Virus record (IMG/VR): IMGVR_UViG_3300002460_000056
Span: 1-44,902 of that record
Strand: one strand, 5' to 3'
DNA: 44,902 bases
Origin: a virus
Shown: positions 1-12,331 of the stretch, one piece after another
How the letters are laid out: each line of letters opens with the position of its first letter
Position numbering within the stretch: position 1 is the first letter of the stretch
Notes under the pieces: generated by a model
What the model was told of the DNA's origin: nothing
Seen by the model: the letters and a program-made list of their open reading frames with translations, nothing else
The model's database searches: none
Position numbers and translations under genes: made by a program

Positions 1-15
1 GCCAAAGAAGCTCAT
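1..15 (-). CDS. Start of a gene cut by the left edge (probably the Gp37/Gp68-type gene at the right edge)
   Basis: Only five codons are present, beginning ATG AGC TTC TTT GGC on the minus strand. A good Shine-Dalgarno (AAAGGAG) lies 8 bases upstream. The ATG overlaps the stop of the preceding 74-aa gene as ATGA, the coupling used throughout this operon. If the window is circular, the frame runs directly into the open frame at 44902 and gives M-S-F-F-G-R-H-G-S-P-R-I-D followed by the conserved GGESGP motif. That join is inference; the start codon and ribosome site are seen directly. Confidence 0.6.
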
Positions 16-236
16 TTGCCGCACTCCTTTTCCCGCTGGATTGGTGCCCTTCCACATCCCCCCTTGCGCCACGGTTTAAAACCTCTGCGCTTGCGCTGGT
101 AGGCCGCAAGCTCCTCCCGATGCGCCTGCTGATAGCGGCGCTGGCGGGCCGCAAGCCTAGACCTGTTCAAGCGATACCACCGTGCTTTGTAGGCCGCACG
201 CACACCGCATCCGGGTTTGGCTCTCTGTTTACTCAT
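12..236 (-). CDS. Small very basic protein, unknown function
   Basis: 74 residues, rich in Arg, Lys, Gln and Tyr. The central part (about residues 15 to 50) has a loose repeated pattern of the type Y-x4-N/H-R-x2-L-A-x-Y/R-Q-R-x-R-Y. Such patterns occur in short phage proteins, sometimes beside HNH nucleases, but there is no HNH core here. A nucleic-acid-binding role is only a guess from the charge. It overlaps both the upstream 77-aa gene and the downstream edge gene by ATGA, so it is translated as part of the leftward operon. Confidence 0.65.
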   Translation of the reverse strand: MSKQRAKPGCGVRAAYKARWYRLNRSRLAARQRRYQQAHREELAAYQRKRRGFKPWRKGGCGRAPIQREKECGK

Positions 237-466
237 TTGCGATGCCTCAAACCGGCCCGGATGCCGGATTCCAGGCTATCTAGGTAAACCTGCAACCCTT
301 TATCCCAATGGGCTTTTTTGGTTGCCTCCACAAGTTCAAGCCACTCTTCCCGCAGATTTGCGTTCTTTTCCTGGCGGCGCTCCGGGCGGTGGCACGGATC
401 AAGTTCTCCGCTTGGAAGCGTTATAAAAGCTCTTCGGTCCCACGGTCCATGTCGTCGGTCTGTCAT
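233..466 (-). CDS. Hypothetical protein, 77 aa
   Basis: Charged, probably mostly helical small protein; I recognise no domain. It is kept because it fits the operon exactly: its ATG overlaps the stop of the ParB-like gene (463..466) and its stop overlaps the start of the basic 74-aa gene (233..236). Plus-strand frames here are open in places but lack ribosome sites and fit no neighbour. Confidence 0.6.
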   Translation of the reverse strand: MTDRRHGPWDRRAFITLPSGELDPCHRPERRQEKNANLREEWLELVEATKKAHWDKGLQVYLDSLESGIRAGLRHRK

Positions 467-1215
467 TTCACTGCCTCCGCCAAGGCCAAAACCGCTTTGC
501 GGGGTGCGTCTACATACTCAAATTCTTTGTTCGTCAGCGCCTCAGCATCTATGCCCTTGAGCATGGCGTTGACCAGTTGCTTGAGGGAGCGGCCCCCAGG
601 CTTGGCGACATCTTTTCCTTTGACCTTCCCTTTACCCTTGACGGCTTCGCGCTGCTGTTCAGCGGAGAGTTTAGAGATGTGGGCGGCGGCGGTGGGCTTG
701 AGCCGCCCTTCCTTCACCGCAGCCTTCGCTTCCGGGTCAAGGGTAACAAGTTTCAACCGGCCCCGCACCCATGCTGCACTTTCGTTATAGGTCTCTGCGA
801 TCTGCTCGATTGTCTGCCCCCATTTTTGGAGCCGGTCGCAGTTGTACGCATCATCAAGCGGCGTGGTGGCGTTGCGGAAGTGGTTTTCGGCGATGCCCGC
901 TAAAAACCCGTCGTTCTCGTTGGTCTGGAAATAGACACAACGAATTTTCAGGGGCAGCGGCGTCAATTTCTCCTTGTTGATTTTGAGGATTGCCCGCCAG
1001 CGCGAGATCCCAACAATGAGAGTTGGAACCCCGCCATTGTTGCGAATCACGACCGGCTGAAGCTGGCCGATTTTGGCGATGCTGGCAACAAGCCCATCAA
1101 TATTCGGCAAGTCCTGTCGCCCATTCAATTCAGGGCTGAGTGCAAGACAAGCCGGATCATAGACGTACTCGCTGGTGCGCGTGTACGCGCTTTTGTCGGT
1201 AAAGTCTACGGCCAA
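463..1215 (-). CDS. ParB/Spo0J-like nuclease-fold DNA-binding protein
   Basis: 250 residues. The N-terminal ParB fold is visible: a segment like 'VASIAKIGQLQPVVIR' (about 44-59), then GISRWRA (about 69-75) at the place of the ParB GxRRxxA motif, then ENHFRNATTPLDDA (about 110-123) at the place of the ENxxR motif. A helix-turn-helix follows (TIEQIAETYNESAAWVRGRL). ParB-like proteins bind specific DNA sites, and phage homologues act in partition, regulation or nicking; no ParA is encoded here, so partition is unlikely. The C-terminus has a Lys/Gly-rich linker. The start is TTG at 1215, chosen because GGAGG lies 6 bases upstream and no ATG is available. It follows the HNH gene almost without a gap. 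Confidence 0.85.
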   Translation of the reverse strand: MAVDFTDKSAYTRTSEYVYDPACLALSPELNGRQDLPNIDGLVASIAKIGQLQPVVIRNNGGVPTLIVGISRWRAILKINKEKLTPLPLKIRCVYFQTNENDGFLAGIAENHFRNATTPLDDAYNCDRLQKWGQTIEQIAETYNESAAWVRGRLKLVTLDPEAKAAVKEGRLKPTAAAHISKLSAEQQREAVKGKGKVKGKDVAKPGGRSLKQLVNAMLKGIDAEALTNKEFEYVDAPRKAVLALAEAVK

Positions 1216-1216
1216 G

Positions 1217-1705
1217 CTACACCTCCATTTTCAGCTTATTTATCTTCGCAAATTCTCCAAAAGTTTCCAGGGCTGCGTGATTATAAGCAACAGCAGCATC
1301 CCATTCACGGACAAAAAGTCCTAAGTGTTTTCGAGTCCCAGAACTCCAAATTACCGCCCGCCACTTTCCAGTTCCGGGATGGAAAGACACTCCCTTGAAG
1401 CGCGAGGCCGCGCCTAATCGTTTTTTCATGTTAGCGTTATTTTGAGTGCGAGACGCTGGGCGTATATTAGAGCGGCGATTGTCCAAGCCGTCTCCGTTTT
1501 TATGGTCAATCTCAGCGGCAGAATCACCGAGAATAAATCTGTGCATGAGAATACATCCATGTCCACGTCCAGCATAGACAGTCAATCGTCCGGTGCCTGT
1601 CCGGCGCTCCGCAGCGTACCACTTAAAGGCATTTACTTTCTCATAATCGGAGGCGTCCACGATGGCGTAATACCCTTTAGTGAGCGGGATTTCACAATGG
1701 CTCAT
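1217..1705 (-). CDS. HNH homing-type endonuclease with AP2 DNA-binding domain
   Basis: 162 residues from the ATG at 1705. The frame is open further upstream, but this start overlaps the stop of the preceding zinc-finger gene as ATGA and begins MSHCEIPLTKGYYAIVD, typical of this family. The HNH_3 core is seen as LMHRFILG...EIDHKNGDGLDNRRSNIR...QNN. It is followed by an AP2/ERF-like domain (SRFKGVSFHPGTGKWRAVIW...AAVAYNHAA...FAKIN). Free-standing HNH-AP2 proteins are mobile, site-specific nicking or cutting enzymes common in phages. It sits inside the leftward operon with no intron or intein around it, so it is probably a free-standing selfish nuclease. Confidence 0.9.
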   Translation of the reverse strand: MSHCEIPLTKGYYAIVDASDYEKVNAFKWYAAERRTGTGRLTVYAGRGHGCILMHRFILGDSAAEIDHKNGDGLDNRRSNIRPASRTQNNANMKKRLGAASRFKGVSFHPGTGKWRAVIWSSGTRKHLGLFVREWDAAVAYNHAALETFGEFAKINKLKMEV

Positions 1706-1872
1706 TTCGATTGCTCTTTTCGTTTTAATTTCAATAAGTGCAGTCCCTCTTTTACCTTGCGTTGTCTGCGTCTTTGGGCGGCGCGCTGCAAACATGAAAG
1801 ATCGCAGTATCGCTGCCTATTGTTGCTTGGTTCAAATTGAGTTCGACAACCCTTGCAAGTTCTTAGGTTCAT
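1702..1872 (-). CDS. Small zinc-finger protein, leaderless start
   Basis: 56 residues from the ATG at 1872. It contains C-K-G-C-x-x-x-F followed by R-Y-C-D-L-S-C, a four-Cys knuckle that probably binds one zinc ion, and then a strongly basic tail. It may bind nucleic acid (inference). The stop overlaps the HNH-AP2 start, so the two are co-translated. No Shine-Dalgarno precedes the ATG; instead a promoter with a perfect TTGACA ends 6 bases before it (see 1879..1907). An upstream in-frame start at 1887 exists but would lie inside that promoter. Confidence 0.75.
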   Translation of the reverse strand: MNLRTCKGCRTQFEPSNNRQRYCDLSCLQRAAQRRRQRKVKEGLHLLKLKRKEQSK

Positions 1873-1878
1873 GGCAAT

Positions 1879-1907
1879 ATTGTGCAAACCTTTTCAAACC
1901 TTGTCAA
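1879..1907 (-). promoter_or_regulatory. Promoter for the 1872 gene, leaderless geometry
   Basis: On the minus strand TTGACA (1907..1902), a 17-base spacer and CACAAT (1884..1879), then exactly 6 bases (ATTGCC) before the ATG at 1872. The expected start of transcription therefore falls on or next to the start codon. Confidence 0.6.
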
Positions 1908-1954
1908 GAGGAATCGTACATCCCCCCAAAGATTTATTTTCCTGCGGCCCAATA

Positions 1955-2242
1955 CTACCGGGCCTTGCCTTCTAAGGTACTAGCCTTCTGTCCTGCCATG
2001 AGCGATGCGCCAAGTCGCACGCCCGCCAGATAGAGTCGGATTTCCTTCTCTGGGGTTTTGCTGGCGCGCATAGACTGAACTTGGTTCTCAATCATGGCGC
2101 GTGCGTCATTCAGTTTGCGACGGTTCTCCACGTGCTGTACTACTCCACCTGCGTCCACGCGCCAGACCACTCCGTCCGCGCCGACAACGACGATCTCGCC
2201 CGCGCCGACTACTTCCTGTTTGTCAGATAGGATGCTTTTCAT
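1955..2242 (-). CDS. Hypothetical protein, 95 aa
   Basis: Starts at the ATG at 2242 because AAAGGAGCGGA lies just upstream. Residues 10-40 form a short-strand region with many Val and Gly (GAGEIVVVGADGVVWRVDAGGV), then a helical, charged C-terminus. It may be a small beta-rich fold with a helical tail; I recognise no family. The stop lies about 80 bases before the leaderless promoter at 1907, so the genes from 1872 down may form their own transcription unit as well as receiving read-through. Confidence 0.6.
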   Translation of the reverse strand: MKSILSDKQEVVGAGEIVVVGADGVVWRVDAGGVVQHVENRRKLNDARAMIENQVQSMRASKTPEKEIRLYLAGVRLGASLMAGQKASTLEGKAR

Positions 2243-2256
2243 TTTCCGCTCCTTTT

Positions 2257-2493
2257 CTATCCCCAAACTTTCCATTCTTTTTCTTCCCCCTTCCCGGCCA
2301 TCGCCTCGACGCAGCGGGCGTCCTCTCTAATATAAGTGCCGACCTTTTGTGTAGAACGAGACACGGCAATAGCAAAACGAAGGATGATTTTCCATTCTTC
2401 GGCGCTGAGGATCACGTCTCCGGTATCCAATACGGTACAGGGGTTGATGTGCCCCCTACTTTGTTGCGCCTCAAGTTTGGTTACGATTCGCAT
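2257..2493 (-). CDS. Hypothetical protein, 78 aa
   Basis: Small soluble protein, no recognised domain. It overlaps the upstream 123-aa gene by 13 bases and ends 14 bases before the next start. A GGAG sits about 10 bases ahead of the ATG. Confidence 0.55.
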   Translation of the reverse strand: MRIVTKLEAQQSRGHINPCTVLDTGDVILSAEEWKIILRFAIAVSRSTQKVGTYIREDARCVEAMAGKGEEKEWKVWG

Positions 2494-2852
2494 GGTTCTA
2501 CTGTCTCCAATCCCCGCTTTTTGCGGTAGGCAAGGGCCAGTATCCGTTGGTCCTCTTTGCCATAAATCTTTGTTAGTACAACCCGGCTCAACTCATCCGC
2601 GAGCCGCTGGGTCTCCCTGATCTCTACCGGAAGGGCGGTAATGATATGAGTGCTCGGATCGAGGTGAAATATGGGATCACGATATGGCTTCTCCACTTCG
2701 GCCAGGGCCCTCTCGGCGGCAACGATCTTCGACGCCAACAATTCCCGAATGTTCGCTGGGTCGGAATCCGCATGTCTTATCTTCGCGGCAGAAATTACAC
2801 TGTGGGCTTTTCTAGCCGCCTCAATCAGTTCCCGGATCGGCTTCGTGTCCAT
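2481..2852 (-). CDS. Hypothetical helical protein, 123 aa
   Basis: Predominantly helical. The first half has heptad-like spacing (IRELIEAARKAHSVI ... LLASKIVAAERALAEVEK), which suggests a coiled coil. The C-terminus is basic (ALAYRKKRG). It starts inside the coding region of the 56-aa Cys gene, with GGAGAGCC before the ATG. No family recognised. Confidence 0.6.
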   Translation of the reverse strand: MDTKPIRELIEAARKAHSVISAAKIRHADSDPANIRELLASKIVAAERALAEVEKPYRDPIFHLDPSTHIITALPVEIRETQRLADELSRVVLTKIYGKEDQRILALAYRKKRGLETVEPCES

Positions 2853-2991
2853 CGGCTCTCCTTTCCTGAGACCCTTTTTTCAAATTTTCCTCGTGCTCTT
2901 CGCTAGTGGTACACAAGCAATGACCTTGTAGGCATTCTTCACGGCAGGCATCACGAATCTGTTTAGCTAACCCAGCAAAATCAAATTTCAT
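2821..2991 (-). CDS. Tiny Cys-containing protein, 56 aa
   Basis: Begins MKFDFAGLAKQIRDACREEC and contains two Cys-rich spots (C-x3-C and C-x-C, with a His between). The start is supported by AAGGAGTAGGGG directly upstream. Its start overlaps the end of the 75-aa gene above, and its end overlaps the start of the 123-aa gene below. Nested small overlaps of this kind are typical of phage early operons. Metal binding is possible but not certain. Confidence 0.6.
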   Translation of the reverse strand: MKFDFAGLAKQIRDACREECLQGHCLCTTSEEHEENLKKGSQERRADGHEADPGTD

Positions 2992-3208
2992 TTCCCCTAC
3001 TCCTTTTCCCTCGAACCTTTTTGGCTAGACCAACAAACTCTTTCCATTTCTTTTCATGCCAAGGGCAGCAATTTGGGAATTGGCCTTTGTACTTTGCTGA
3101 CATTATAGCCTCCGCAAGCTCCCGGCCCGCTGCGGCCTGGGCCTCTAGCACATCGCACGCTGGGCACGATGGGCGGTCGCAGGTTGATAGGCATTCATGT
3201 TTTGCCAT
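2981..3208 (-). CDS. Cys/His-rich small protein, 75 aa
   Basis: Contains C-x3-C-x4-C-x2-C near the N-terminus (C-L-S-T-C-D-R-P-S-C-P-A-C) and a later N-C-C-P-W-H, so it could carry one or two zinc sites. The sequence is otherwise helical and charged. ATG at 3208 is preferred; a GTG one codon upstream (3211) is also possible. AAGGGGA precedes both. Function unknown. Confidence 0.6.
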   Translation of the reverse strand: MAKHECLSTCDRPSCPACDVLEAQAAAGRELAEAIMSAKYKGQFPNCCPWHEKKWKEFVGLAKKVRGKRSRGNEI

Positions 3209-3221
3209 CACTTCCCCTTAG

Positions 3222-3536
3222 CTATATTCTCACCCTTCCCTCAGCTTGGGCGATGGCGGTCTCTAAAGAGCGGTACGCCTGCCCACTTGGGCACGGGCAA
3301 TATAGCAGCCCCTCTCCGCATTTTTCATGGAATGATGGATCGCCCCGCATTGCTTTCCGTGCGGCCTTTGCAGCGGTGAGCAGATTCGTGTGGCTCCGCA
3401 GCATCGCCTTGAAATCGGCCAGAGCTTGCTTGTCGGCTTCCCCCGTTTTTGGCTTGAGCCGAAGCATGGCGTGATAGACACCATAGGCAATGTCCCCCCG
3501 AACTGTATATCCCGACGCATGTTTCATTTTGCTCAT
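3222..3536 (-). CDS. Hypothetical protein with C-terminal Cys-Pro-Cys motif, 104 aa
   Basis: Starts MSKMKHASGYTVRGDIAYGVYHAM; TAGGAGC is upstream. The middle is helical (KQALADFKAMLRSHTNLLTAAKAARKAM). It ends in a C-x8-C-P-C segment (EKCGEGLLYCPCPSG) that could bind metal together with other residues. Position and spacing fit the leftward operon. No family recognised. Confidence 0.6.
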   Translation of the reverse strand: MSKMKHASGYTVRGDIAYGVYHAMLRLKPKTGEADKQALADFKAMLRSHTNLLTAAKAARKAMRGDPSFHEKCGEGLLYCPCPSGQAYRSLETAIAQAEGRVRI

Positions 3537-3579
3537 GTTAGTTAGCTCCTATAGCGTGGTGGCCTGTGCCACTTGCTCT

Positions 3580-3828
3580 TCAGTCGGCTTTTCCCCCGTT
3601 AGAGCTTTGAGGAGATTTAGAGTAGCTTTCACTTCCCGTCACAGTCTCCAAAATCCCCCGCTCTACATCTTCTCTAATCCACCTTTCTAAATCGGTAGTC
3701 AGTAGTTGGGAACTGCCGGAGAAAATACCCTCATAGTCCGGGTACTCAACCCAATCATGCAAGGGCTTCGGTTTACGATGGATCACAGTCCGCTTTCCGT
3801 TGCGGATATTCCGGTAGGTTTCAGGCAT
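3580..3828 (-). CDS. Hypothetical protein, 82 aa
   Basis: Start at ATG 3828, or GTG one codon earlier; both overlap the end of the 91-aa gene. No recognised domain. The C-terminal third is Ser-rich. Kept on operon position and overlap. Confidence 0.5.
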   Translation of the reverse strand: MPETYRNIRNGKRTVIHRKPKPLHDWVEYPDYEGIFSGSSQLLTTDLERWIREDVERGILETVTGSESYSKSPQSSNGGKAD

Positions 3829-4096
3829 CACGTTGCACCGCCTTTGCCAGTAATGCTTCCGCCCGTTTCCAAGAGAAACCCTCCCCCCAATTATTCTCCC
3901 CGCCTATCGGAATACAGGGTGGGAAATTAACTCCGGGCTGCACCAAATACGCCGTAAAGAATCGCGGGATAGCATCGCAAGTGCGATCCAGCACGATGGT
4001 GGCGATGATCTTCCGGTTTGGATATTCATATTCTCGGCGAGAGTGCCGACTGATAGATCTCGGCGGGTCAATTCTGTAACGAGTAATTTCACGCAT
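3821..4096 (-). CDS. Hypothetical protein, 91 aa
   Basis: Begins MREITRYRIDPPRSISRHSRREYEYPN, with a hydrophobic strand (KIIATIVLD) in the middle and a basic, helical C-terminus. GAAGGGAG lies about 11 bases before the ATG. Immediately upstream is the 270-base non-coding structured gap, so this gene's ribosome site could be affected by that RNA's folding (inference). Confidence 0.55.
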   Translation of the reverse strand: MREITRYRIDPPRSISRHSRREYEYPNRKIIATIVLDRTCDAIPRFFTAYLVQPGVNFPPCIPIGGENNWGEGFSWKRAEALLAKAVQRDA

Positions 4097-4366
4097 GGGT
4101 TTTTCTACTCCCTTCTCGATTTCCCTATAGGGACCGCACGGCAGGCCGTTAGGGATTGCGGCTTTTCGGGGGCTACCCTAGCCGTGCGGGAGGAGCTTGA
4201 GTGTACTCACCGGATTCTGGCTGACGCCACAGCTCGCCAGTTGATCCTGTCGCTTTCCCCCGGAATAACCCGCCGCCCGTCACGCGGGCACGGAAACCGG
4301 GATCGCAAGCCCTCCACGCGGCCCGCTCCGCAAGCAAGTGGGCCCAGCGCAAGGCTCAAACTTCCG
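4097..4366 (-). other. GC-rich, structured non-coding gap in the leftward operon (ncRNA candidate)
   Basis: This 270-base stretch breaks an operon whose other genes overlap or nearly touch. No minus-strand frame here has a start with a ribosome site, although two frames lack stops for about 55 codons, as expected of GC-rich sequence. Visible structure: a 12-base palindrome TCCCTATAGGGA (4122-4133), a large stem at 4134-4189, and a hairpin GCCCG-CGTGA-CGGGC near 4277-4291. It resembles no RNA family I can name. It could be a phage ncRNA, a 5' leader controlling the 91-aa gene, a DNA site for replication or packaging, or a decayed gene. Confidence 0.45.
4134..4189. repeat. Inverted repeat forming a long stem
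   Basis: CCGCACGGC (4134-4142) and GCCGTGCGG (4181-4189) are perfectly complementary over 9 bases. The stem continues as TAGGG (4150-4154) with CCCTA (4176-4180) after a 7-base bulge on one side only, giving 14 pairs. There is no T-run after it on either strand, so it is not a standard terminator. Confidence 0.75.
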
Positions 4367-4585
4367 CTAAAGTGTGGAAAGCGATTCTGGCCGTTTCCGT
4401 GCTAACACTAGCAGGATATTTCCAGCGACCTCGTCGGCTTCTGTGGTTCCCTGCGCACTAGTCCTTAAAGCGTGCTCGATATTGGAAAGAACTTGATAGC
4501 TTTCATTGCTAAACCATTCCTTCCCGTTAATGCGGAGTGCCCACCCAGAGGCATTCTGCACCATTTCCGTGTGTGGCGTTTCCAT
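4367..4585 (-). CDS. Hypothetical protein, 72 aa
   Basis: Begins METPHTEMVQNASGWALRIN. A short beta segment (GWALRINGKEWFSN) is followed by a helix. Ribosome site GGGAG precedes the start. No recognised family. It is the last gene before the structured gap. Confidence 0.55.
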   Translation of the reverse strand: METPHTEMVQNASGWALRINGKEWFSNESYQVLSNIEHALRTSAQGTTEADEVAGNILLVLARKRPESLSTL

Positions 4586-4647
4586 GTTTCAGTCTCCCTT
4601 CTTCTCCCTATCGTGTCGCTTCCATTCCGCCTATTTAGATTCAAGGC

Positions 4648-4893
4648 TCAGGCGTTTGGGACAGCCGCCAGAAGCGTTTCATGTAGATACTTCTTGGCAT
4701 GACGGAGTATTTCTAAAGCTCCCCGCTCCGCTTCGGGTGGCTCATCGAATGTAGAAAACGGTCCGGGGTCCCTGATATAGGGACATAGAATCTGATATGC
4801 GGCCTTGTCTACAATCTCCACCGCCTCTATCTGCGCGTTTCTCAAGTCTGGCCGGTTTTTATCTAGCCAGATCACTTTTTCGCGTATCGTCAT
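4648..4893 (-). CDS. Hypothetical protein, 81 aa
   Basis: Starts at ATG 4893 (MTIREKVIWLDKNRPDLRN), after GAGGGAGGGAG. The start overlaps the zinc-ribbon gene stop as ATGA, so the longer open frame running upstream is rejected. It is mainly helical and charged. Its coding sequence contains GTCCCTGATATAGGGAC (4768-4784), a palindrome related to the one at 4122-4133. Confidence 0.6.
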   Translation of the reverse strand: MTIREKVIWLDKNRPDLRNAQIEAVEIVDKAAYQILCPYIRDPGPFSTFDEPPEAERGALEILRHAKKYLHETLLAAVPNA

Positions 4894-5042
4894 TTCACTC
4901 CCTCCCTCAGTATCGGTTGTTTCGCCCGGTCCCACGTAACCCTGTGGCACTTCGGGCAGACCCGAACATCCGCTGTCCGGGGCGTCCAAACGTGTCCGCA
5001 CTGGTTACAGGTTAGTGTGACGAGCTTGAGTGGTTTTGGCAT
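4890..5042 (-). CDS. Zinc-ribbon protein, 50 aa
   Basis: Complete 50-residue protein with T-C-N-Q-C-G-H-V-W near residues 11-19 and V-C-P-K-C-H near 28-33. The two CxxC knuckles are about 15 residues apart, the classic zinc-ribbon layout. Such mini-proteins are frequent in phage early regions, with unknown partners; roles in DNA or RNA binding are usually assumed. It is coupled to the next gene by ATGA (4890-4893). No strong ribosome site is seen, but the stop of the gene above lies only 2 bases away, so it may be reached by coupling. Confidence 0.75.
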   Translation of the reverse strand: MPKPLKLVTLTCNQCGHVWTPRTADVRVCPKCHRVTWDRAKQPILREGVK

Positions 5043-5044
5043 GG

Positions 5045-5302
5045 TTAGTAATTATCCCCGCTCACGCTTGAATTCGCCTCGTTGTACGTGATAGACTCGC
5101 TTGCAAACGCTAGTTCCGTCCAGTGGAAACCTGGTAATCGCTGCGCTTGGTACATCATCCGCGCGGAGGCGGTGTATTTCCTGGAATCGTTGAGGCGGTC
5201 AGACTTATTGATTAAGTCCGCTGCCTTGCCTGCCTCATCACAGATTGCCACCACCATATTGTCGTAAAGAACCTGGTTGCCGTTTGACGTGTACATGTTC
5301 AT
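5045..5302 (-). CDS. Hypothetical protein, 85 aa
   Basis: The chosen start is ATG 5302 (MNMYTSNGNQVLYDNM) because GGAGGGA ends right before it; the upstream ATG at 5311 is itself part of that ribosome site. Helical protein with no recognised family. It is the first gene after a sigma-70-like promoter at 5318-5345 and probably heads its own transcript. Confidence 0.6.
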   Translation of the reverse strand: MNMYTSNGNQVLYDNMVVAICDEAGKAADLINKSDRLNDSRKYTASARMMYQAQRLPGFHWTELAFASESITYNEANSSVSGDNY

Positions 5303-5317
5303 TCCCTCCATGCTTAG

Positions 5318-5345
5318 ACAATATCACGGTATTGGGCATAGTCAA
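5318..5345 (-). promoter_or_regulatory. Leftward sigma-70-like promoter
   Basis: On the minus strand TTGACT (5345..5340), a 16-base spacer and TATTGT (5323..5318). It lies just upstream of the 85-aa gene, which has its own ribosome site, so this transcript would have an ordinary short leader. Confidence 0.5.
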
Positions 5346-5423
5346 GCCACAAAATATGGTGGGTAACACTCCTAGCTAACCACTACCAGTTGTGCGGAGT
5401 CACTCGAAAGGCACGTCTCTAAA

Positions 5424-5467
5424 CAGTTAAAACTGAAAAAGCCGGAGCCTGTAAACTATTGAATAGT
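5424..5467. repeat. Two short palindromes in the gap between leftward genes
   Basis: The 130-base gap 5346-5476 has no gene. It holds CAGTT-AA-AACTG (5424-5435) and ACTATT-G-AATAGT (5455-5467), both perfect. They lie between the end of the HNH gene and the promoter at 5345, where operator sites would be expected. No T-run makes either a terminator. A role as a repressor site is inference. Confidence 0.4.
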
Positions 5468-5476
5468 CGGCGTTTG

Positions 5477-6223
5477 TTAATAATCGACTGCCCGGTTATG
5501 GTGCAACCAGGAAAAATCGTTACGCTTCACTAAAAAATGCGGGGCGGTGGTTTTTTGTTTAGACCTTAGACGACGAGCGTTTCGTTTCGCTTTCTCCGCC
5601 ACGGCATTTCTCAAATAGTAAGTACGGTTGCGTATCTGTTTACACAATTTACAAACACCTTGAGCATTTCGGTTCTCTGGAATAGTGGAATGTCCAGCTT
5701 TACAGAATGGTCGCTTCTGTCTTAGCCTTGGGATATATAGACTTTTTACGCACGCGGAGATTTTATTCAAACAATCCTGGCAAGAAGCTCTTTCTGATTT
5801 TGCGGGGACTTTGCGGCAATGTGCGCAAATCCCTTTCTCTTTGCATTCCGCGCGCGATGGTAAAAATATCCTGACTTTGCGGGGGATAGGCGGCTTGCGA
5901 GTTGCGTCGGCATGAATACGGCGATGGCAAAAAACGCACAGATATTGCAAATTTTCAAGGTCGTTAAACGTGTCCGCTTGATCTTTACCTGCCCCGCGAT
6001 GGTGAACGTGGTGAGATTCCCCCGCCAATCCACACCTTTCACACCTCCCGTTGGCTCTGTTTTTGACTGCATTCCAAACCGCTGGCCGGGGCATCAAAAT
6101 TTGCTGTATTCGCTGTCTGGAAACGCCCAAAGCGGTCCCAATTTGGCGGTATGTTTTACCGTCTAGACGAAGAACAAGCGCGCTTTGAATCATGCCTCTA
6201 GTGTAGGAAGTTTGTTTAAGCAT
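5477..6223 (-). CDS. HNH endonuclease with N-terminal helix-turn-helix and extra zinc knuckles
   Basis: 248 residues. An N-terminal helix-turn-helix (about 24-43, YRQIGTALGVSRQRIQQIL) is followed by a McrA-type HNH core: C61-x2-C64, HHVHH at 71-75, Asn91, then C96-x2-C99-H100 and H104. The C-terminal half has further pairs (CAHC, CQDC, CKLC) spaced like zinc knuckles, then a very basic tail. A DNA nuclease recognising a specific site is likely: homing, packaging or host attack. It is the first gene of the leftward block. No Shine-Dalgarno precedes the ATG; a promoter-like element ends 6 bases upstream, so the transcript may be leaderless. Confidence 0.85.
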   Translation of the reverse strand: MLKQTSYTRGMIQSALVLRLDGKTYRQIGTALGVSRQRIQQILMPRPAVWNAVKNRANGRCERCGLAGESHHVHHRGAGKDQADTFNDLENLQYLCVFCHRRIHADATRKPPIPRKVRIFLPSRAECKEKGICAHCRKVPAKSERASCQDCLNKISACVKSLYIPRLRQKRPFCKAGHSTIPENRNAQGVCKLCKQIRNRTYYLRNAVAEKAKRNARRLRSKQKTTAPHFLVKRNDFSWLHHNRAVDY

Positions 6224-6229
6224 GAATTT

Positions 6230-6259
6230 ATCCTAACATAATTAACTGCCGCCGGGCAA
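6230..6259 (-). promoter_or_regulatory. Promoter of the leftward block, leaderless geometry
   Basis: Minus strand TTGCCC (6259..6254), an 18-base spacer and TAGGAT (6235..6230), then AAATTC and the ATG at 6223. The hexamers match consensus at 4 of 6 positions each. The spacing to the ATG is the same 6 bases as at 1872, 8246 and 9433. Confidence 0.5.
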
Positions 6260-6415
6260 GTAAAATCTTTTTAATGTACGGCAAGATGGTTGCTTTTGTT
6301 CCCCGCATTCCATAGATTGAAACAGACCCGGCCCCGTGCTGGGAAACCCTGCGATCTGGGCGGGGCGATTGCCAGACCAATTACCCCGCCCGGCCCGCCT
6401 GTCTGGAGGCTCACA

Positions 6416-6523
6416 TTGGCAATTTCCAAAACCGTTCGCTTTGAGGTTTTCAAGAGAGATTCATTCCATTGCGGCTATTGCGGACGTACTCCGCCAGCCG
6501 TGGTTCTAGAAAAGGAACGTTAA
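6416..6523 (+). pseudogene. Truncated HNH endonuclease, first part
   Basis: 35 codons from TTG at 6416 (GGAGG 6 bases upstream): AISKTVRFEVFKRDSFHCGY then C-G-R-T-P-P-A-V-V-L-E, ending in TAA. This is the standard beginning of a well-known phage HNH family, up to the first CxxC knuckle. In full proteins VVLE is followed by the D-H catalytic segment and the second CxxC, which are absent. The next open frame is in the same reading frame right after the TAA and resembles the family's C-terminal helical part, so a deletion plus a stop has removed the catalytic centre. It cannot be an active nuclease. The 6224-6415 stretch upstream holds no gene I can support. Confidence 0.75.
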
Positions 6524-6793
6524 TTGCAAGTCTCTGAATACAATAAACTTACCAAAAGAATTCTCGCCCGCAAAAGACGGGAGATAAACGAAATTGCTCG
6601 CCGCTATTCTCTTCTTTATCCAGAGTGGCAATTAACCGAACAGTTCAAGGTATCCACGCTTTCTACCTTTCTTGACAGGCTTCCTAAAGAAGAAATCTTA
6701 GAGGCTTGGAATCTGGCCTATCAAATGAAACCCAGAGACCCCGTAAGATATTTTTGCGGAATCTGCTGGAAGAAAATCAGAGGTGAGGAATAA
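6524..6793 (+). CDS. C-terminal helical remnant of the HNH-type protein, possibly translated alone
   Basis: 89 residues from TTG 6524, immediately after the TAA, with AAAAGGAA 7 bases ahead. Helical, ending in R-Y-F-C-G-I-C-W-K-K-I-R. The L-x3-F-L-D-R-L-P-K-E-E-I-L-E-A pattern and the FCGICWKKIR end are typical of the C-terminal part of phage HNH-helical proteins encoded just before replication initiators. Its frame is the same as the 6416 remnant. Its stop overlaps the next gene (TAATG), so it may still serve to couple translation. It could be functional as a small helical protein. Confidence 0.6.
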   Translation: MQVSEYNKLTKRILARKRREINEIARRYSLLYPEWQLTEQFKVSTLSTFLDRLPKEEILEAWNLAYQMKPRDPVRYFCGICWKKIRGEE

Positions 6794-7812
6794 TGGCGAA
6801 CCGCATCATCCGTGACTCTTGCAAGACCAGTAAATCCCTTGACCATATCTCCGCCGAAGCCGAGCGCCTGTTCTGGCGGCTCATCACGGTTGCAGACGAT
6901 TTTGGCCGCTTTGAGGCTGAGCCGGTCCTACTTTTGGCTAAGTGCTTTCCTTTGCGGGTAAAAATCTATGATTTAACGGATATTTCAAAGTGGTACGCTG
7001 AATTAGAGTCGTGCAAACACGTGCAAACATATGTTAGCAACGGACAACTGTATGGTTTCTTCGTTAGTTGGGGTAAACACCAACAGACGCGGGCAAAGGC
7101 TTCAAAGTACCCGGACCCTAACAAATGTTTGCAGCCGCAAGCAGATTCCCTCGTATACGTAGACGAAGCTCCGAGCGCAGACGTAAGCGAATGCGAACAC
7201 GTGCTTACAAACGTACCGCCTTTTTCTCCGAACCAAACTGCCGGTTCGGAGGTGTTTTCTATAAATCCAAACCCAAAGCGCGGGAAACTCATAACCGGAC
7301 GCGCCCGCAAAACCATCTTCTTTTCCGATGATGCCCGCAACCTTGCACTCCAACTCAAAGCCGGTATCCTCGAAAATAACCCCGCCGCCCGGATCTCGGA
7401 TTCCCAGCTAATCGCCTGGACCCGAGAAGCCGATCTCATGTTCAGGCGCGATGGCAGAGATCCAAAAGATTCAGCCGAACTTATGGCCTGGGCCCAGCAT
7501 GACGTCGTGACCCCGCGCAATCATAGCGACTGGCAAGGCTGGGCTTCTGTTATCCTGAGCATGGCAAAATTCCGCCAGCAGTATGACCATCTTTCCCTCA
7601 AAGCCCAGGCTGACCCCCAAAAACCGCCCCGCTCCCAACTGCCTTATCCCACGGACTCGGCCCCTGGCAAGACTCCACCCCCAGCCTCGACACCGGCGCT
7701 TTGTGCCAGTTGCGGACAACTCCAAAGCTGGCATATCCGCAATAACAACGGGAATTCCCTTGCCAATGACCGCTATCACTGCGAGAATTTCGTTTCCGCC
7801 ATAGCTCCCTAA
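6793..7812 (+). CDS. Replication initiator/replisome organiser-like protein
   Basis: 339 residues. The N-terminus (IRDSCKTSKSLDHISAEAER then LFWRLITVADDFGRFEAEP) is the conserved opening of a phage winged-helix family annotated as replication-initiator or DnaD-like. W-G-K-H-Q-Q-T-R-A-K-A-S-K-Y-P closes the first domain (about residue 105). A variable linker follows, then a helical domain (about 190-270). The C-terminus has a Pro-rich stretch and a possible zinc knuckle (CASCGQLQSWH ... HCENF). It probably binds the phage origin and loads host helicase; this is inference from the family. No phage polymerase, primase or helicase is seen, so replication must rely on the host. Confidence 0.75.
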   Translation: MANRIIRDSCKTSKSLDHISAEAERLFWRLITVADDFGRFEAEPVLLLAKCFPLRVKIYDLTDISKWYAELESCKHVQTYVSNGQLYGFFVSWGKHQQTRAKASKYPDPNKCLQPQADSLVYVDEAPSADVSECEHVLTNVPPFSPNQTAGSEVFSINPNPKRGKLITGRARKTIFFSDDARNLALQLKAGILENNPAARISDSQLIAWTREADLMFRRDGRDPKDSAELMAWAQHDVVTPRNHSDWQGWASVILSMAKFRQQYDHLSLKAQADPQKPPRSQLPYPTDSAPGKTPPPASTPALCASCGQLQSWHIRNNNGNSLANDRYHCENFVSAIAP

Positions 7813-7822
7813 CAAAAAAGAC

Positions 7823-7851
7823 TTGACATCGCCTTTTGCTTCGCTGATTCT
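7823..7851 (+). promoter_or_regulatory. Rightward promoter candidate
   Basis: Perfect TTGACA (7823-7828), a 17-base spacer and GATTCT (7846-7851), a weak -10. It is preceded by C like the TTGACA boxes at 9399 and 13241. It would read into the hairpin at 7877. Confidence 0.4.
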
Positions 7852-7876
7852 AGGAATGTCGAAGAAGGAAAACATC

Positions 7877-7921
7877 TGAGGGGCGTAATGCAGGTCGCCC
7901 AGACAGTGCGGCGCCCCCTCA
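7877..7921 (+). repeat. Stem-loop that hides a Shine-Dalgarno-like GAGGGG
   Basis: TGAGGGGCG (7877-7885) pairs with CGCCCCCTCA (7912-7921) with a single bulged C, giving 9 pairs. The paired GAGGGG would otherwise serve the ATG at 7888. No T-run follows. Confidence 0.5.
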
Positions 7922-8209
7922 CGGCTTTCCTAATCGGCGCTGCGAGAATATCAGATGGAATCTAAACCATCAAACAGCACGTTAGGACGGGGCAGCACTC
8001 GATCCGAAAACGCGATACTGCGCGCCAGCGCACAGGTCCGGGCAGGTTTGCCGACTTTACCCTGCTGACCACTGCCATTGCTCGCCGTTCCTTGCTCTTT
8101 GACGAAAAAATGAAAACCGCCTCCATAAAGTCGCTTTCCTCACTGCCGTAGGCGGCCCGAGCGTAGGCATAGCCGTAGCGGTTCCCCTAGAGTCCCTGCT
8201 TCTCCCCCC

Positions 8210-8239
8210 TTGCTAATTTCCGTAAACTTAGCGTAATAT
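8210..8239 (+). promoter_or_regulatory. Promoter of the small terminase gene, leaderless geometry
   Basis: TTGCTA (8210-8215), an 18-base spacer and TAATAT (8234-8239), then CTGTCT and the ATG at 8246. No Shine-Dalgarno is present, and an in-frame stop lies a few codons upstream, so this ATG is the only possible start. Confidence 0.55.
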
Positions 8240-8245
8240 CTGTCT

Positions 8246-8863
8246 ATGGAACCGCAACCGCAACCTAAACCTAAACCGGCCCGCAAAATACGTAAGCTAG
8301 ATCCCCTAAAACCGTTTCCCAATGAAAAATGGGAAGCCTTCTGCCACGCTATAGCTCGCGGGGAGACTCAAGGTCAATCCGCAATCCTTGCAGGATACAG
8401 CCCATTACGTGCTGGTGCCCAGGGTTGCCAGATGGTGCATAGGCCAGTTATACAAGACAGAATCAATAATATCCGATCACGAACGACAAATAGCGCAATT
8501 GAGCGGGTTGCACTTAGTAAGTGTTGGGTGCTGCAAAACCTGAGAGACAACGTGGAAAGGGCTTTACAATCCGTAGAAATTATTGATTCTAAAGGCAATA
8601 GAACGGGGGAGTATAGGTACGATGGGAGCGTAGTAAATCGCGGTTTGGAACTTATCGGGAAAGAGCTAGGGATGTTCGTTGATCGCAAGATTCTAGGTAT
8701 TCAAGACCTCCGCCATGCAAGCGCCGATGATCTTTATAGCCTCTTGAGCGAGATTGACAGTGCTATAGAGGCTAGGCAGCTTACCGAGGGGAGTAAAAGC
8801 GCGCAGTCGGAGCAGACCGAGGAGCAATTCATACCGCCATCGGATGATACCCTTGCCAGTTAG
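8246..8863 (+). CDS. terS: Terminase small subunit
   Basis: 205 residues. A Pro/Lys-rich N-terminus is followed by W-E-A-F-C-H-A-I-A-R-G-E-T-Q-G-Q-S-A-I-L-A-G-Y-S (about residues 31-54), the helix-turn-helix signature of phage terminase small subunits (Terminase_2-like), which bind the packaging start on phage DNA. The middle is the helical oligomerisation region. L-G-M-F-V-D-R-K-I-L-G-I near residue 150 is a common family end motif. It lies about 4.7 kb from the large subunit, an unusual separation. A leaderless start is suggested by the promoter 6 bases upstream. Confidence 0.8.
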   Translation: MEPQPQPKPKPARKIRKLDPLKPFPNEKWEAFCHAIARGETQGQSAILAGYSPLRAGAQGCQMVHRPVIQDRINNIRSRTTNSAIERVALSKCWVLQNLRDNVERALQSVEIIDSKGNRTGEYRYDGSVVNRGLELIGKELGMFVDRKILGIQDLRHASADDLYSLLSEIDSAIEARQLTEGSKSAQSEQTEEQFIPPSDDTLAS

Positions 8864-8939
8864 ACTTTACAGTGATTTCCAGGGCAATTACAACCCACCT
8901 AACCTATTGAATACACACAACAGTTGGCTATCGAGTTAG

Positions 8940-8957
8940 ACAGTATGGCTATACTGT
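8940..8957. repeat. Perfect 7-base palindrome, operator-like
   Basis: ACAGTAT-GGCT-ATACTGT. It sits 77 bases after the terS stop in a gene-free region, with no T-run. It has the size and symmetry of a repressor operator; the outer ACAGT resembles the start of the palindrome at 5423-5435. Regulation by the HTH protein at 40036 is a guess. Confidence 0.5.
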
Positions 8958-9189
8958 GCAATGGCGCGCACTTGCCCCAGGTTGTATTTAGGGGTACTAG
9001 ACCACCTCCGACGGCCCAGCAACGCAGCCGCGGGCCAGCAGGACGGCATGGTGCTGACTCTGGGAGATAGGTGCGAAGCCAAACCAGGGGGGGGGGCGTG
9101 CGGACGGGCGACCCGCACCGTCTATGATAGATCAGCCTGGGGGGATTTTGGGATTTCAAGAGTGGCAGTTCCGGCTAAGGGGGGGGTAT
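8958..9189 (+). other. Gene-free stretch with long G runs
   Basis: No convincing gene. An open frame at 8961..9203 has low-complexity content and no ribosome site. The plus strand carries G10 (9087-9096), a GTGCGG/CCGCAC stem-loop (9098-9118), TCTATGATAGA (9122-9132), G6 near 9141 and G8 (9179-9186). Such G tracts can form quadruplexes or slip during replication. Confidence 0.45.
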
Positions 9190-9275
9190 TGGCGGAAGGT
9201 TGAGGAATCGAACCCCCAGGTATAACCCTGCCACGGTTTTCAAGACCGTTTACCAGCCAGTTAGCGGGGCCTTCC
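9190..9275 (-). tRNA. tRNA-Ser (anticodon UGA), CCA encoded
   Basis: The minus strand folds as a class II tRNA: acceptor GGAAGGC with ACCTTCC (6 of 7 pairs), anticodon arm ACGGT-CTTGAAA-ACCGT with anticodon TGA, a long variable arm (CAGG ... CCTG) and a T arm GGGGG-TTCGATT-CCTCA. A discriminator G and an encoded CCA (9192..9190) follow. The UGA anticodon and the long variable arm both fit serine. The D arm is weakly paired and T-arm pairing is imperfect, so it may be divergent. It lies antisense inside the rightward block and needs its own leftward promoter, which I could not identify. Confidence 0.72.
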
Positions 9276-9398
9276 GCTTGGATTTCCTGCAAAATCTCAG
9301 CCGCGCTGCCGATTACACTACAGCGGCCAATTCCCCGTGCAGCAGTACCAGGTTGCAGACCTACCGAAAAACGGGACTAGGGGTACTGCATTATTTTC
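9276..9398 (-). other. Short gap with a tRNA-like 5' half
   Basis: No gene. On the minus strand 9281-9346 looks like the 5' half of a tRNA: GGGGAAT acceptor-like, a perfect GCCG/CGGC D-like stem and a GATTT/AAATC stem. There is no T arm or matching 3' acceptor. It probably is a degenerate tRNA next to the tRNA-Ser. Confidence 0.35.
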
Positions 9399-9426
9399 TT
9401 GACACGCCCGTAACTTCTGTTACACT
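9399..9426 (+). promoter_or_regulatory. Strong promoter of the 9433 gene, leaderless geometry
   Basis: TTGACA (9399-9404), a 16-base spacer and TACACT (9421-9426), then AAAAAC and ATG at 9433. TTGACA and a TGTTACAC block recur at 13241-13269. Confidence 0.7.
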
Positions 9427-9432
9427 AAAAAC

Positions 9433-9672
9433 ATGGCATCATTAAACATTCGCAATTTCCCGGAGGAGCTTTTATTTGCTTTGAATATTATGGCGGCGCA
9501 GCGGCGAGGAACATTGCGCGGGCTGGTGATTAAGGAATTGGGGGAAGTGGCGGAGGCATCAGGTTTTCCAAGTCGGGACCGGATAGTGCAGGCCATCGAA
9601 TTTTTCTCGTTGGATGACACAGTGAAGGCGCGGGAGGCAAAGAAGAAAAATGGGGGAGAAAAAAGGAGATAG
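9433..9672 (+). CDS. Ribbon-helix-helix protein (Arc/FitA-antitoxin-like)
   Basis: 79 residues beginning MASLNIRNFPEELLFALNIM and R-R-G-T-L-R-G-L-V-I-K-E-L, the strand-helix-helix fold of small dimeric DNA-binding proteins such as Arc and FitA-type antitoxins. The C-terminus is basic (AREAKKKNGGEKRR). No toxin gene follows, so a transcription repressor of its own promoter or operon is more likely than a toxin-antitoxin pair. It starts on an ATG 6 bases after a strong -10 with no ribosome site, the best leaderless case in the window. It heads the operon of small genes running to 13191. Confidence 0.75.
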   Translation: MASLNIRNFPEELLFALNIMAAQRRGTLRGLVIKELGEVAEASGFPSRDRIVQAIEFFSLDDTVKAREAKKKNGGEKRR

Positions 9673-9678
9673 AGCGCA

Positions 9679-9795
9679 ATGTTTTTTACCCTATGCCAAC
9701 GATGCGGGCTGCGAAGGGATAAGTGTGAATCATGGGGGAGAGAAGATTATCGGCGCAGAAAGAATGGGAACAGAACGCAAAAAAATACCATTTGA
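9679..9795 (+). CDS. Tiny Cys-containing protein, 38 aa
   Basis: Starts MFFTLCQRCGLRRDKCESWG, with C-x2-C-x6-C. The ribosome site AAAAGGAGAT is among the best in the region and fits only this ATG. It overlaps the next gene (9732) in another frame, so either this is a coupling leader or both are made. Function unknown. Confidence 0.5.
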   Translation: MFFTLCQRCGLRRDKCESWGREDYRRRKNGNRTQKNTI

Positions 9796-10022
9796 CGCCA
9801 GAGCATGATTTTTATTATGTATTCCGGGAAATTTTTCTTTTGAGGCGGATGGCTGAACTACACAAACAGGAAAACATCACTGTTGAAGAGGGACAATTCA
9901 AGCCGATGTCAAGGGAAAATTTCCTGGAATATAAATGTTTATTACAAGAATATCTGCGGAATCCGGGTAAAGTTGAATCGGACTGGGTAGCAGGGGGGGG
10001 GTATGACAAAGCAGTTCAATAG
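9732..10022 (+). CDS. Hypothetical protein, 96 aa
   Basis: Charged helical protein (MGERRLSAQKEWEQNAKKYH). Its end overlaps the start of the next gene by 20 bases. Its own ribosome site is poor, and translation may depend on the 38-aa frame. No family recognised. Confidence 0.55.
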   Translation: MGERRLSAQKEWEQNAKKYHLTPEHDFYYVFREIFLLRRMAELHKQENITVEEGQFKPMSRENFLEYKCLLQEYLRNPGKVESDWVAGGGYDKAVQ

Positions 10023-10392
10023 GCGGCCCAAGCCAGAACCGGTAAAAATAACAATTAACGAAATTGGGAAGGAAGGCGAAGTTGTCAAAGTTTCGTTATT
10101 GGGGTGTGATCCTTACACTACGGGGCCGACCCTATGTGAGCATTTGACGCGGACTGGCTCAATGCAGACGCCGAAGAAGCAGCGGGCGCAGGTGGAGAAC
10201 TTGGAGAAGGCGCGGAAAGCTCGGAAGAAAAAGAATGAAATAGAAATATACATTAGTGATAGACTTCCATTCCAAGAAGTGCGCGCTGGGATTCTTGATG
10301 GATTGAAAGATTATGCAGAGGGGAAACCCTGTCCATTCCCCTCCAACGTAGTGTGGCAAAAGCGGGCGGTGAAGAAAGAGAAGAAGCCATGA
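10003..10392 (+). CDS. Hypothetical protein, 129 aa
   Basis: Basic protein, beta-rich at the N-terminus (VKITINEIG...VVKVSLLG) and with a long Lys/Arg helix in the middle (ENLEKARKARKKKNEIEIYI). A run of nine Gs (9993-10001) directly precedes the ATG and acts as the only Shine-Dalgarno-like sequence. No family recognised. Confidence 0.55.
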   Translation: MTKQFNRRPKPEPVKITINEIGKEGEVVKVSLLGCDPYTTGPTLCEHLTRTGSMQTPKKQRAQVENLEKARKARKKKNEIEIYISDRLPFQEVRAGILDGLKDYAEGKPCPFPSNVVWQKRAVKKEKKP

Positions 10393-10538
10393 CGATTGAG
10401 GAGTTGGAGAAATATCGGCAGAAGTTGGACGAAATGTTTGGGGAAAGTTCTCTTCCAGGCAAGGAGCGGTTGCTTTGCGAGATCGCCCTAGACCTGAAGC
10501 GGTTGCTTCTTATACAGGAAGATATTCTGGCTAAATAA
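10389..10538 (+). CDS. Small helical protein, 49 aa
   Basis: ATG overlaps the preceding stop (ATGA). Acidic helical peptide beginning MTIEELEKYRQKLDEMFG, probably a coiled coil. Function unknown. Confidence 0.5.
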   Translation: MTIEELEKYRQKLDEMFGESSLPGKERLLCEIALDLKRLLLIQEDILAK

Positions 10539-10575
10539 AGCGGAAGATTGAATTTCAGAAAGAGGAGGAACTTTG

Positions 10576-10746
10576 ATGGGATATTTCCCTTGCATGGAAA
10601 TTAGACTTGAGAGAACAGGAGACTCGCTTGTTGCGGAATGGTATGACAGTGTAATGGCCAGGTGGAACAAGAAAGAATTCGAGCGCGACAAGGTGGATGA
10701 TGCCCTTGCATGGTTGCGCAAGGCATTCATAGCAGTAGAGATGTAG
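10576..10746 (+). CDS. Hypothetical protein, 56 aa
   Basis: Starts MGYFPCMEIRLERTGDSLVA after AGAGGAGGAA, an excellent ribosome site; ends at TAG 10744. A beta strand then a helix (DALAWLRKAFIAVEM). Function unknown. Confidence 0.6.
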   Translation: MGYFPCMEIRLERTGDSLVAEWYDSVMARWNKKEFERDKVDDALAWLRKAFIAVEM

Positions 10747-10758
10747 GGAGGTATCTGA

Positions 10759-10953
10759 ATGGAAGATTACAGAAGCTTGGAAGAGGATTATGTTCGCAGG
10801 CTTAGATTAGCCCAAGAGAGCGGTGATCGTAGTCCAGTTCCGCTCATTGATGAGTCCAGGGTGCGTATAGTGAAGAAGCTTATGTCGTCCAGACAAGCCG
10901 CAGAAGAGCTTCTTTCTATTTTAAAGGAAAAGAAGTGGAAAACGGAGGGATAA
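10759..10953 (+). CDS. Hypothetical helical protein, 64 aa
   Basis: Preceded by TAGGGAGG. Highly charged, helical (MEDYRSLEEDYVRRLRLAQE). Adjacent to the next gene with only the stop codon between. No family recognised. Confidence 0.55.
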   Translation: MEDYRSLEEDYVRRLRLAQESGDRSPVPLIDESRVRIVKKLMSSRQAAEELLSILKEKKWKTEG

Positions 10954-11538
10954 ATGTTCCAGATTCAGTTTAAGCATGACTTTGGGTGGGGAGTCATAAA
11001 AGGCGGCGTCACACAGGAGTTTCCAACATTGGATCAAGCGAGGGTTCTGTTTGGACAGCATCTATCTGGGACTGAAGATTTCCGCATCCTGGACCTGGAA
11101 ACCCTGACGGTGCATCCGATGATTGAGCAAAAACCTTGTATAGACGAAGCTGATATGGTGTTAGAAAAGGTTGCCATTATTCCAATAAGGAAAGGCGATG
11201 AATTATCGGAAATTTCCCTATTGGAATACAAGAAGAGAGGCGCTTCCCCTGTTTCAGACTTAATTAGGAGGGATGATTTTGCTTTCTCTCTGGAATACAA
11301 GAAACGAGGGACATCAAGATATAGCATCCGAGCCGGAGATTCAGGCAAGGAGCAACCCATGGGCTACGAGAAGAGACTTGACAATATTCCACTGCACACG
11401 AACGCAATCACGGAATTGCAGCGGAAATTTATAGAGACTGAGATTCGTTCTCTCAACTCGGAATGTGATGTTGAGTCTCTGAAAACTCGGATCAGGGTGC
11501 TGGAAAATATTGAACGGGGAAGGATTGGTTCACCATGA
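10954..11538 (+). CDS. Hypothetical protein with a duplicated LEYKKRG segment, 194 aa
   Basis: The N-terminal 60 residues are a small alpha/beta region (FGWGVIKGGVTQEFPTLDQA). Two copies of LEYKKRG(A/T)S occur about 27 residues apart in the middle. The last 60 residues form a helix-rich segment (NAITELQRKFIETEIRSLNS). Ribosome site CGGAGGG sits upstream. Its stop overlaps the next tiny gene by ATGA. I do not recognise a family. Confidence 0.6.
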   Translation: MFQIQFKHDFGWGVIKGGVTQEFPTLDQARVLFGQHLSGTEDFRILDLETLTVHPMIEQKPCIDEADMVLEKVAIIPIRKGDELSEISLLEYKKRGASPVSDLIRRDDFAFSLEYKKRGTSRYSIRAGDSGKEQPMGYEKRLDNIPLHTNAITELQRKFIETEIRSLNSECDVESLKTRIRVLENIERGRIGSP

Positions 11539-11636
11539 TTCCACAAGACCGCCTTGCCGGGATTGATCCGGGCACTCTGGAAGCTGGGGTTGATGTGGTA
11601 GCTGTGGCGAAGGCAACAAAAAATGGGCAAGAATAA
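11535..11636 (+). CDS. Tiny protein, 33 aa
   Basis: Coupled by ATGA to the gene before and overlapping the next start by 14 bases. Sequence starts MIPQDRLAGIDPGTLEAGVD. Too short for a functional guess; possibly only a coupling frame. Confidence 0.4.
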   Translation: MIPQDRLAGIDPGTLEAGVDVVAVAKATKNGQE

Positions 11637-11817
11637 ATTTACATCGTCAGAAGAATTTGCAAAAAAACTTCATGCCGCTGTTAAAGAACAGGCTGATAAG
11701 TTGCCAAAAGAGAAAAGAGGAAAATTTTGGGAGATGGTCTTTTATCAACTCCAAACATCGGTAGGGAGATTCCCGGCGCGAAAGGAGGAAATTGATGGAA
11801 TACTTAACAGACCGTGA
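11623..11817 (+). CDS. Hypothetical protein, 64 aa
   Basis: Basic helical protein (MGKNKFTSSEEFAKKLHAAV). Its last part contains the ribosome site (AAAGGAGGA) of the recombinase gene, which overlaps its end. Function unknown. Confidence 0.55.
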   Translation: MGKNKFTSSEEFAKKLHAAVKEQADKLPKEKRGKFWEMVFYQLQTSVGRFPARKEEIDGILNRP

Positions 11818-12331
11818 GTGGAAGGAATTCATTGGCGTAGTGGATTCTCCACGGGACCGGGCGATGCTGACAGTAGCCTATTGGCGCGGGCTGCGGGCCT
11901 CAGAGCTTGGCTTGCTCATACTGGCGGACCTGGATATGAAGGCTTGCCGGTTGCGGGTGAGGCGGCTGAAAGGAAGCTTGGGCGGGGAATATCACCTGTC
12001 TCCCGATGAAGTAAAGGCTCTCAAGTCTTGGCTTAAAGTGCGCGGGTTTGAATCTGGGCCGTTGTTTCCTTCGCGGGAAGGACAGTCTGGGATAAAGCGC
12101 GGGATGGTCCACGTGCTTGTGCAAAAGTATGGAAAGCTGGCGGGCTTGCCATTGGAGAAGTGCCACCCTCACATTTTAAAGCACTCCATTGCGACGCGTC
12201 TGCTCGACAAGGGCGTAGCGATCACGGCGGTGCAGGACTGGCTTGGGCATCGAAACATTCAGAACACAATGGTCTATGCTGCGGTAACGAACGCGCAACG
12301 GACGGAGGCGGAAAGATTGGCGTATGCCTGA
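11795..12331 (+). CDS. Tyrosine recombinase, catalytic domain only, Lys in place of Arg II
   Basis: 178 residues from ATG 11795 (AAAGGAGG 6 bases upstream; the in-frame TTG before it is not needed). Catalytic residues visible: Arg34 in RGLRASE, Lys59 in RRLKG, His126 in HPHILKHS, His152 in DWLGHRN, nucleophile Tyr161 in NTMVYAAV. The second Arg of the H-x-x-R box is Lys129 here. The N-terminal core-binding (SAM-like) domain of integrases is missing, so this is a minimal enzyme like some resolvases. No att-like repeats flank it and it sits inside an operon of small genes. Dimer or concatemer resolution, or an internal inversion, are alternatives to integration. I do not infer lysogeny from it. 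Confidence 0.85.
   Translation: MEYLTDREWKEFIGVVDSPRDRAMLTVAYWRGLRASELGLLILADLDMKACRLRVRRLKGSLGGEYHLSPDEVKALKSWLKVRGFESGPLFPSREGQSGIKRGMVHVLVQKYGKLAGLPLEKCHPHILKHSIATRLLDKGVAITAVQDWLGHRNIQNTMVYAAVTNAQRTEAERLAYA

Follow-up and report, generated by a model that had tools for sequence, protein, structure and literature searches.

The window analysed here, which is the full length (44,902 bases) of a virus record, belongs to a P22-like podovirus and encodes a P22-like portal, scaffold and coat. Two blocks of its genes are leftward, one between the left end and position 6223 and the other between ~39.2 kb and the right end; the genes elsewhere are rightward. At five places in this genome, a pair of sigma70-like hexamers sits so close to a gene that exactly 6 bases separate the -10 from an ATG.

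On the plus strand, TTGCTA-18-TAATAT-CTGTCT-ATG (hexamers at 8210..8239, start codon at 8246) lies before terS (8246..8863), which encodes the terminase small subunit, a protein of 205 aa (phrog_51, E=6e-15) that is 46% identical to its homologue in L033, a related phage. On the same strand, TTGACA-16-TACACT-AAAAAC-ATG (hexamers at 9399..9426, start codon at 9433), in which TG precedes the -10, leads into the first gene of the small-gene operon (9433..9672). Its product is a ribbon-helix-helix-like (RHH-like) protein of 79 aa, of which residues 2-24 match the Pfam profile FitA-like_RHH (E=8e-4, under the curated cut-off).

On the minus strand, TTGCCC-18-TAGGAT-AAATTC-ATG (hexamers at 6259..6230, start codon at 6223), with an AGGA within its -10, precedes the gene of an HNH endonuclease of 248 aa (5477..6223; phrog_740, E=7e-12) that heads a leftward operon, with 300 bases to the next called gene upstream. 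TTGACA-17-CACAAT-ATTGCC-ATG (hexamers at 1907..1879, start codon at 1872), also on the minus strand, has a -10 that departs from TANNNT and stands before a gene (1702..1872) for a small zinc-finger-like protein of 56 aa, which is NinG-like over residues 3-53 (E=7e-4, under the cut-off) and matches phrog_1333 (E=5e-6); the stop of this gene overlaps, in an ATGA, the start of an HNH/AP2 gene (1705..1217, minus). The fifth element, TTGACT-16-TATTGT-CTAAGC-ATG (hexamers at 5345..5318, minus, start codon at 5311), is followed by a family-less ORF of 88 aa (5045..5311, minus), for which searches of Pfam and PHROGs gave no match. The base at -1 is C or T and that at +1 is the A of the ATG at all five sites, which would happen about 1.6% of the time by chance at this genome's rate.

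The sequence-only reading on which this analysis builds had listed the first four of these elements, all of which we find where it had placed them and with the 6-base gap that it had described, and had overlooked the fifth. The -10 is of the TANNNT type, in its strict form, at 8246, 9433, 6223 and 5311; the same reading was therefore right about this pattern at three of its sites (6223, 8246 and 9433) but not at 1872, where CACAAT is accepted by a relaxed sigma70 model only. Its assignment of the elements to operon heads (the first leftward gene, terS and the start of the small-gene operon) agrees with their positions and with the intergenic gaps ahead of these genes, which measure 82 to 569 bases.

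Other features of the genome were recorded along the way. The large terminase subunit TerL is encoded in two adjacent frames, one for the ATPase (13582-14397) and one for the nuclease (14405-15196); since the TerL of the related phage L025 is divided at the same place (3361-4164 and 4165-4971) and the annotation of MW202785 likewise lists two TerL genes, a sequencing error is unlikely. On the plus strand, 6290-6793 holds two same-frame ORFs with one stop between them, which match residues 1-32 and 92-166 of phrog_14314 (HNH), the middle part of this HNH gene being absent. A gap of ~270 bases within the leftward operon harbours an Rfam int-alpA RNA (4123-4188, minus; 57.9 bits vs a cut-off of 35.8). 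The stretch 9194-9275 (minus) is tRNA-like, with a Ser-type anticodon loop CTTGAAA (UGA) and a sub-threshold match to tRNA-Sec (32.1 bits), and ARAGORN makes no tRNA call there; a similar stretch, without an Rfam match, can be made out by eye in L025 (about 730-885). Finally, runs of 7 to 10 G are found in or beside intergenic gaps (9087-9096, 9179-9186 and 9993-10001), as they are in L033 (about 1682, 1773 and 2471), and in both phages these may possibly be phase-variable tracts or assembly noise.

Spacing between promoter and start codon

Sigma70-like sites are as frequent in this genome as chance would have it (10 in positions 1..12000 vs 9.7 in shuffles), so that the sites alone mean nothing and the claim rests on where they are. 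Among the 72 called starts, distance 6 has four instances of the strict pattern TTGN3-N16-18-TANNNT, distances 4 and 17 have one each, and all other distances up to 100 have zero. With a chance expectation of 0.044 per distance at called starts, four matches at distance 6 have a Poisson P of about 1.5e-7, for a set of starts that includes four manual adjustments or additions (9433, 6223, 5311 and 1872), that of 5311 having been prompted by the pattern itself; leaving out 5311, there are three strict cases and P is about 1.4e-5.

When every ATG of ORFs of at least 50 codons is considered, distance 6 again has four matches, and the remaining distances between 0 and 300 have two at most (mean 0.23). 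The comparison with randomised sequence, which the sequence-only reading had put forward, comes out in favour of a preferred distance, with four matches in the window vs a mean of 0.15, and a maximum of two, at distance 6 in 60 Markov-1 random sequences of 45 kb. Eight comparison phages (316 kb in total) have two distance-6 matches together, 0 or 1 each, a rate from which 0.28 would be expected in the window and at which the P of at least four is about 2e-4. A relaxed sixth match at 28965 was set aside because it is inside a long gene, as was the strict match at distance 4 (40449), which is inside a longer ORF.

Ribosome sites, start codons and relatives

The median energy of base-pairing to the 16S rRNA 3' end is -7.3 kcal/mol at called starts and -3.0 kcal/mol at random positions, in line with the remark that most other genes of this phage have clear ribosome sites. 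The energy is 0 at 8246, 9433 and 5311, -3.4 kcal/mol (background level) at 1872 and -4.0 kcal/mol at 6223, where the AGGA in TAGGAT is a weak ribosome-site match. The statement that none of the four listed genes has a Shine-Dalgarno site thus stands for 8246 and 9433, but strictly speaking not for 1872 and 6223.

All five starts are ATG, and those at 8246, 9433 and 1872 are supported by homology or gene overlap. The L033 homologue aligns with TerS from the first Met, the FitA-like RHH profile matches from residue 2 of the 9433 product and the NinG-like profile from residue 3 of the 1872 product (both below cut-off), the latter gene also having its ATGA overlap with the next one. Alternatives are present at 6223 and 5311. 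The HNH gene has another Met at 6193, and the first codons of the 5311 gene, ATGGAGGGAATGAAC, contain a GGAGGG 7 bases before an internal ATG (5296, 15 bases inside the 5311 start), with a pairing energy of -9.8 kcal/mol. This strong site means that the 5311 gene could be Shine-Dalgarno-led even with an RNA that starts at 5311; together with the weak ribosome site at 6223, it makes translation from a 5'-terminal AUG uncertain for both genes. A simple gene caller shifted the starts at 9433 and 6223 to internal Shine-Dalgarno-led codons, choosing at 9433 a TTG with GGAGGAG upstream, and the pattern described here helps to fix starts misplaced in this way.

Relatives were sought among viral contigs with TerS, the RHH and HNH proteins, coat, portal, TerL, the replication protein and a portal alignment, and among genome contigs with TerL and portal alignments, the latter without finding any. 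Most searches returned distant relatives only. The four closest are L025, L031, L032 and L033 (portals 57 to 64% identical), of which the first three end short of the left region, so that a homologous start is covered only by L033, for terS. There, TTGATT-17-GACAAT, which matches four of six bases in each hexamer, is followed by 8 bases and the ATG, with no evident Shine-Dalgarno site; for any one start, the probability of finding a site this good at a distance of 4-8 bases is about 0.5%. Conservation of the 6-base spacing, which the sequence-only reading proposed to look for in relatives, is not borne out in this one relative at this one start, where the spacing is 8 and the promoter weaker. 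From these sequences, a promoter abutting terS seems to be common to both phages, the exact spacing not. No promoter abuts the terS start of more distant phages, some of which have an ordinary ribosome site there, and MW202785 displays no homology around the five starts.

The long gap between the replication gene and terS contains in both phages an identical 13-mer, AATCTAAACCATC (about 7957-7969 in the window and 445-457 in L033), which is possibly a packaging or regulatory site. This shared 13-mer led us to consider a conserved RNA in the gap, an idea that was rejected, the stretch from the window folding no better than its shuffles (z 0.08; L033 z -2.1). In L036 (EBPR podovirus 1), the annotated Cro has an internal ATG that is separated by 7 bases from a preceding TTGACA-17-TACATT (35801, minus), which suggests that the start of this gene has been annotated too far upstream and that it may be nearly leaderless.

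Leaderless messages and the alternatives

Sigma70 RNA polymerase starts ~7 bases after the -10, preferably on a purine that follows a pyrimidine, and ribosomes, in known cases as intact 70S, can use the 5'-terminal AUG of a leaderless message. In this phage, a start point ~7 bases from the -10 would place RNA polymerase on the first base of the ATG, ribosomes would initiate on the 5'-terminal AUG of the resulting mRNAs, and the downstream genes of each operon would be translated via ordinary Shine-Dalgarno sites. We consider it probable that host-type sigma70 promoters yield in this manner leaderless, or nearly leaderless, mRNAs (with a leader of 0 to 2 nt) for the genes at operon heads. What we infer from the sequence is where the 5' ends lie, that the polymerase is that of the host and that translation begins on a 5' AUG. 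The original suggestion that transcription starts on the start codon gains from the non-random spacing, from the clearest sites having no Shine-Dalgarno pairing and from the ATG preceded by a pyrimidine, but it loses from the spacing of 8 in L033 and the alternatives at 6223 and 5311.

It could be argued that the promoters are real and that translation nevertheless begins elsewhere, either from an internal Shine-Dalgarno-led start or, via the AGGA of a -10, on a longer transcript initiated upstream. The GGAGGG before ATG 5296, the AGGA in the TAGGAT of 6223 and the gene caller's choice at 9433 all speak for this possibility, which we find unlikely, since internal starts would cut the RHH match at 9433, the zinc-finger match at 1872 and the alignment of TerS with L033 at 8246. 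Coincidence is less probable still. AT-rich sequence before starts would then give promoter-like matches, among which a reader picked those at the same distance, and it is true that promoter-like sites per se are at chance level, that the hexamer and spacer limits were set after the sites had been seen and that 1872 requires a relaxed -10. However, every distance from 0 to 100 other than 6 has at most one match, the random sequences never reached four and an element that had not been listed (5311) turned up at the same distance. Lastly, the hexamers might be operators, or recognition sites for a phage-encoded factor, rather than host-type promoters. Short inverted repeats do overlap some of the sites, as seen by eye (for example GTAAC-TTCT-GTTAC in the 9433 spacer), but repeats that short are common by chance, and the hexamers with their spacers of 16-18 fit sigma70 without any further shared motif, which makes this explanation highly improbable.

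Leaderless transcription from host-type promoters, which we thus prefer, has a bolder version, in which operon heads would be leaderless nearly throughout the phage (packaging and nuclease genes included), Shine-Dalgarno sites would serve downstream genes and this two-mode scheme would be under selection. This we regard as doubtful. If true, such a scheme might, for example, allow the first genes to go on being translated in infected cells that run short of initiation factors or free 30S subunits.

Comparison with known leaderless systems

The mRNA of lambda cI, the classic leaderless case, begins on its AUG, and the promoter PRM from which it is made is activator-dependent and has a -35 that is not TTG. 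In the lambda record, the cI start reads TAGATT-TAACGT-ATG, which is the same gap of 6 bases between -10 and ATG as in the elements described here. However, lambda has one repressor gene of this kind, whereas in the window the arrangement is seen at four or five operon heads, terS and nuclease genes included, and with -35s of the TTG type.

Leaderless mRNAs have been found by 5' RACE for cI and cro of PY54 (PMC4488713) and for the prophage gene paaR2 in E. coli O157:H7, in a paper that also names lambda cI as a leaderless gene (PMC8630535). Here too, as in the window, the promoter is immediately before the start codon. These are regulator genes only, mapped experimentally, whereas the elements in the window are known from sequence alone. 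Phage transcripts are often leaderless according to one study (PMC5312081), and where such messages have been mapped in phages, it was mostly for one or two regulators.

In bacteria, a TANNNT is found ~12 bp upstream of leaderless starts (Zheng et al. 2011; PMC3160421), which, counted from its first T, corresponds to the 6-base gap of the window; the -10 thus has the same position in both, which in the window too would leave no leader for a Shine-Dalgarno site. This signature is common in Deinococcus-Thermus, as reported in 2025 (PMC12340547). In bacteria of this kind, leaderless genes are a large part of the genome (about 39% in Deinococcus-Thermus), whereas in the window the pattern is present only at operon heads, each time with a -35-like hexamer. 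In the Thermus phage P23-45, which has such a leaderless-rich host, TANNNT is at distance 6 before three of 88 annotated starts, from which no strong conclusion can be drawn.

If true, a phage with four or five leaderless operon heads would offer a convenient natural system in which to test how initiation on a 5'-terminal AUG is used during infection. Translation of messages that begin on their start codon is a known, although rare, mechanism, and it is the concentration of this arrangement at the operon heads of this phage that is unusual.
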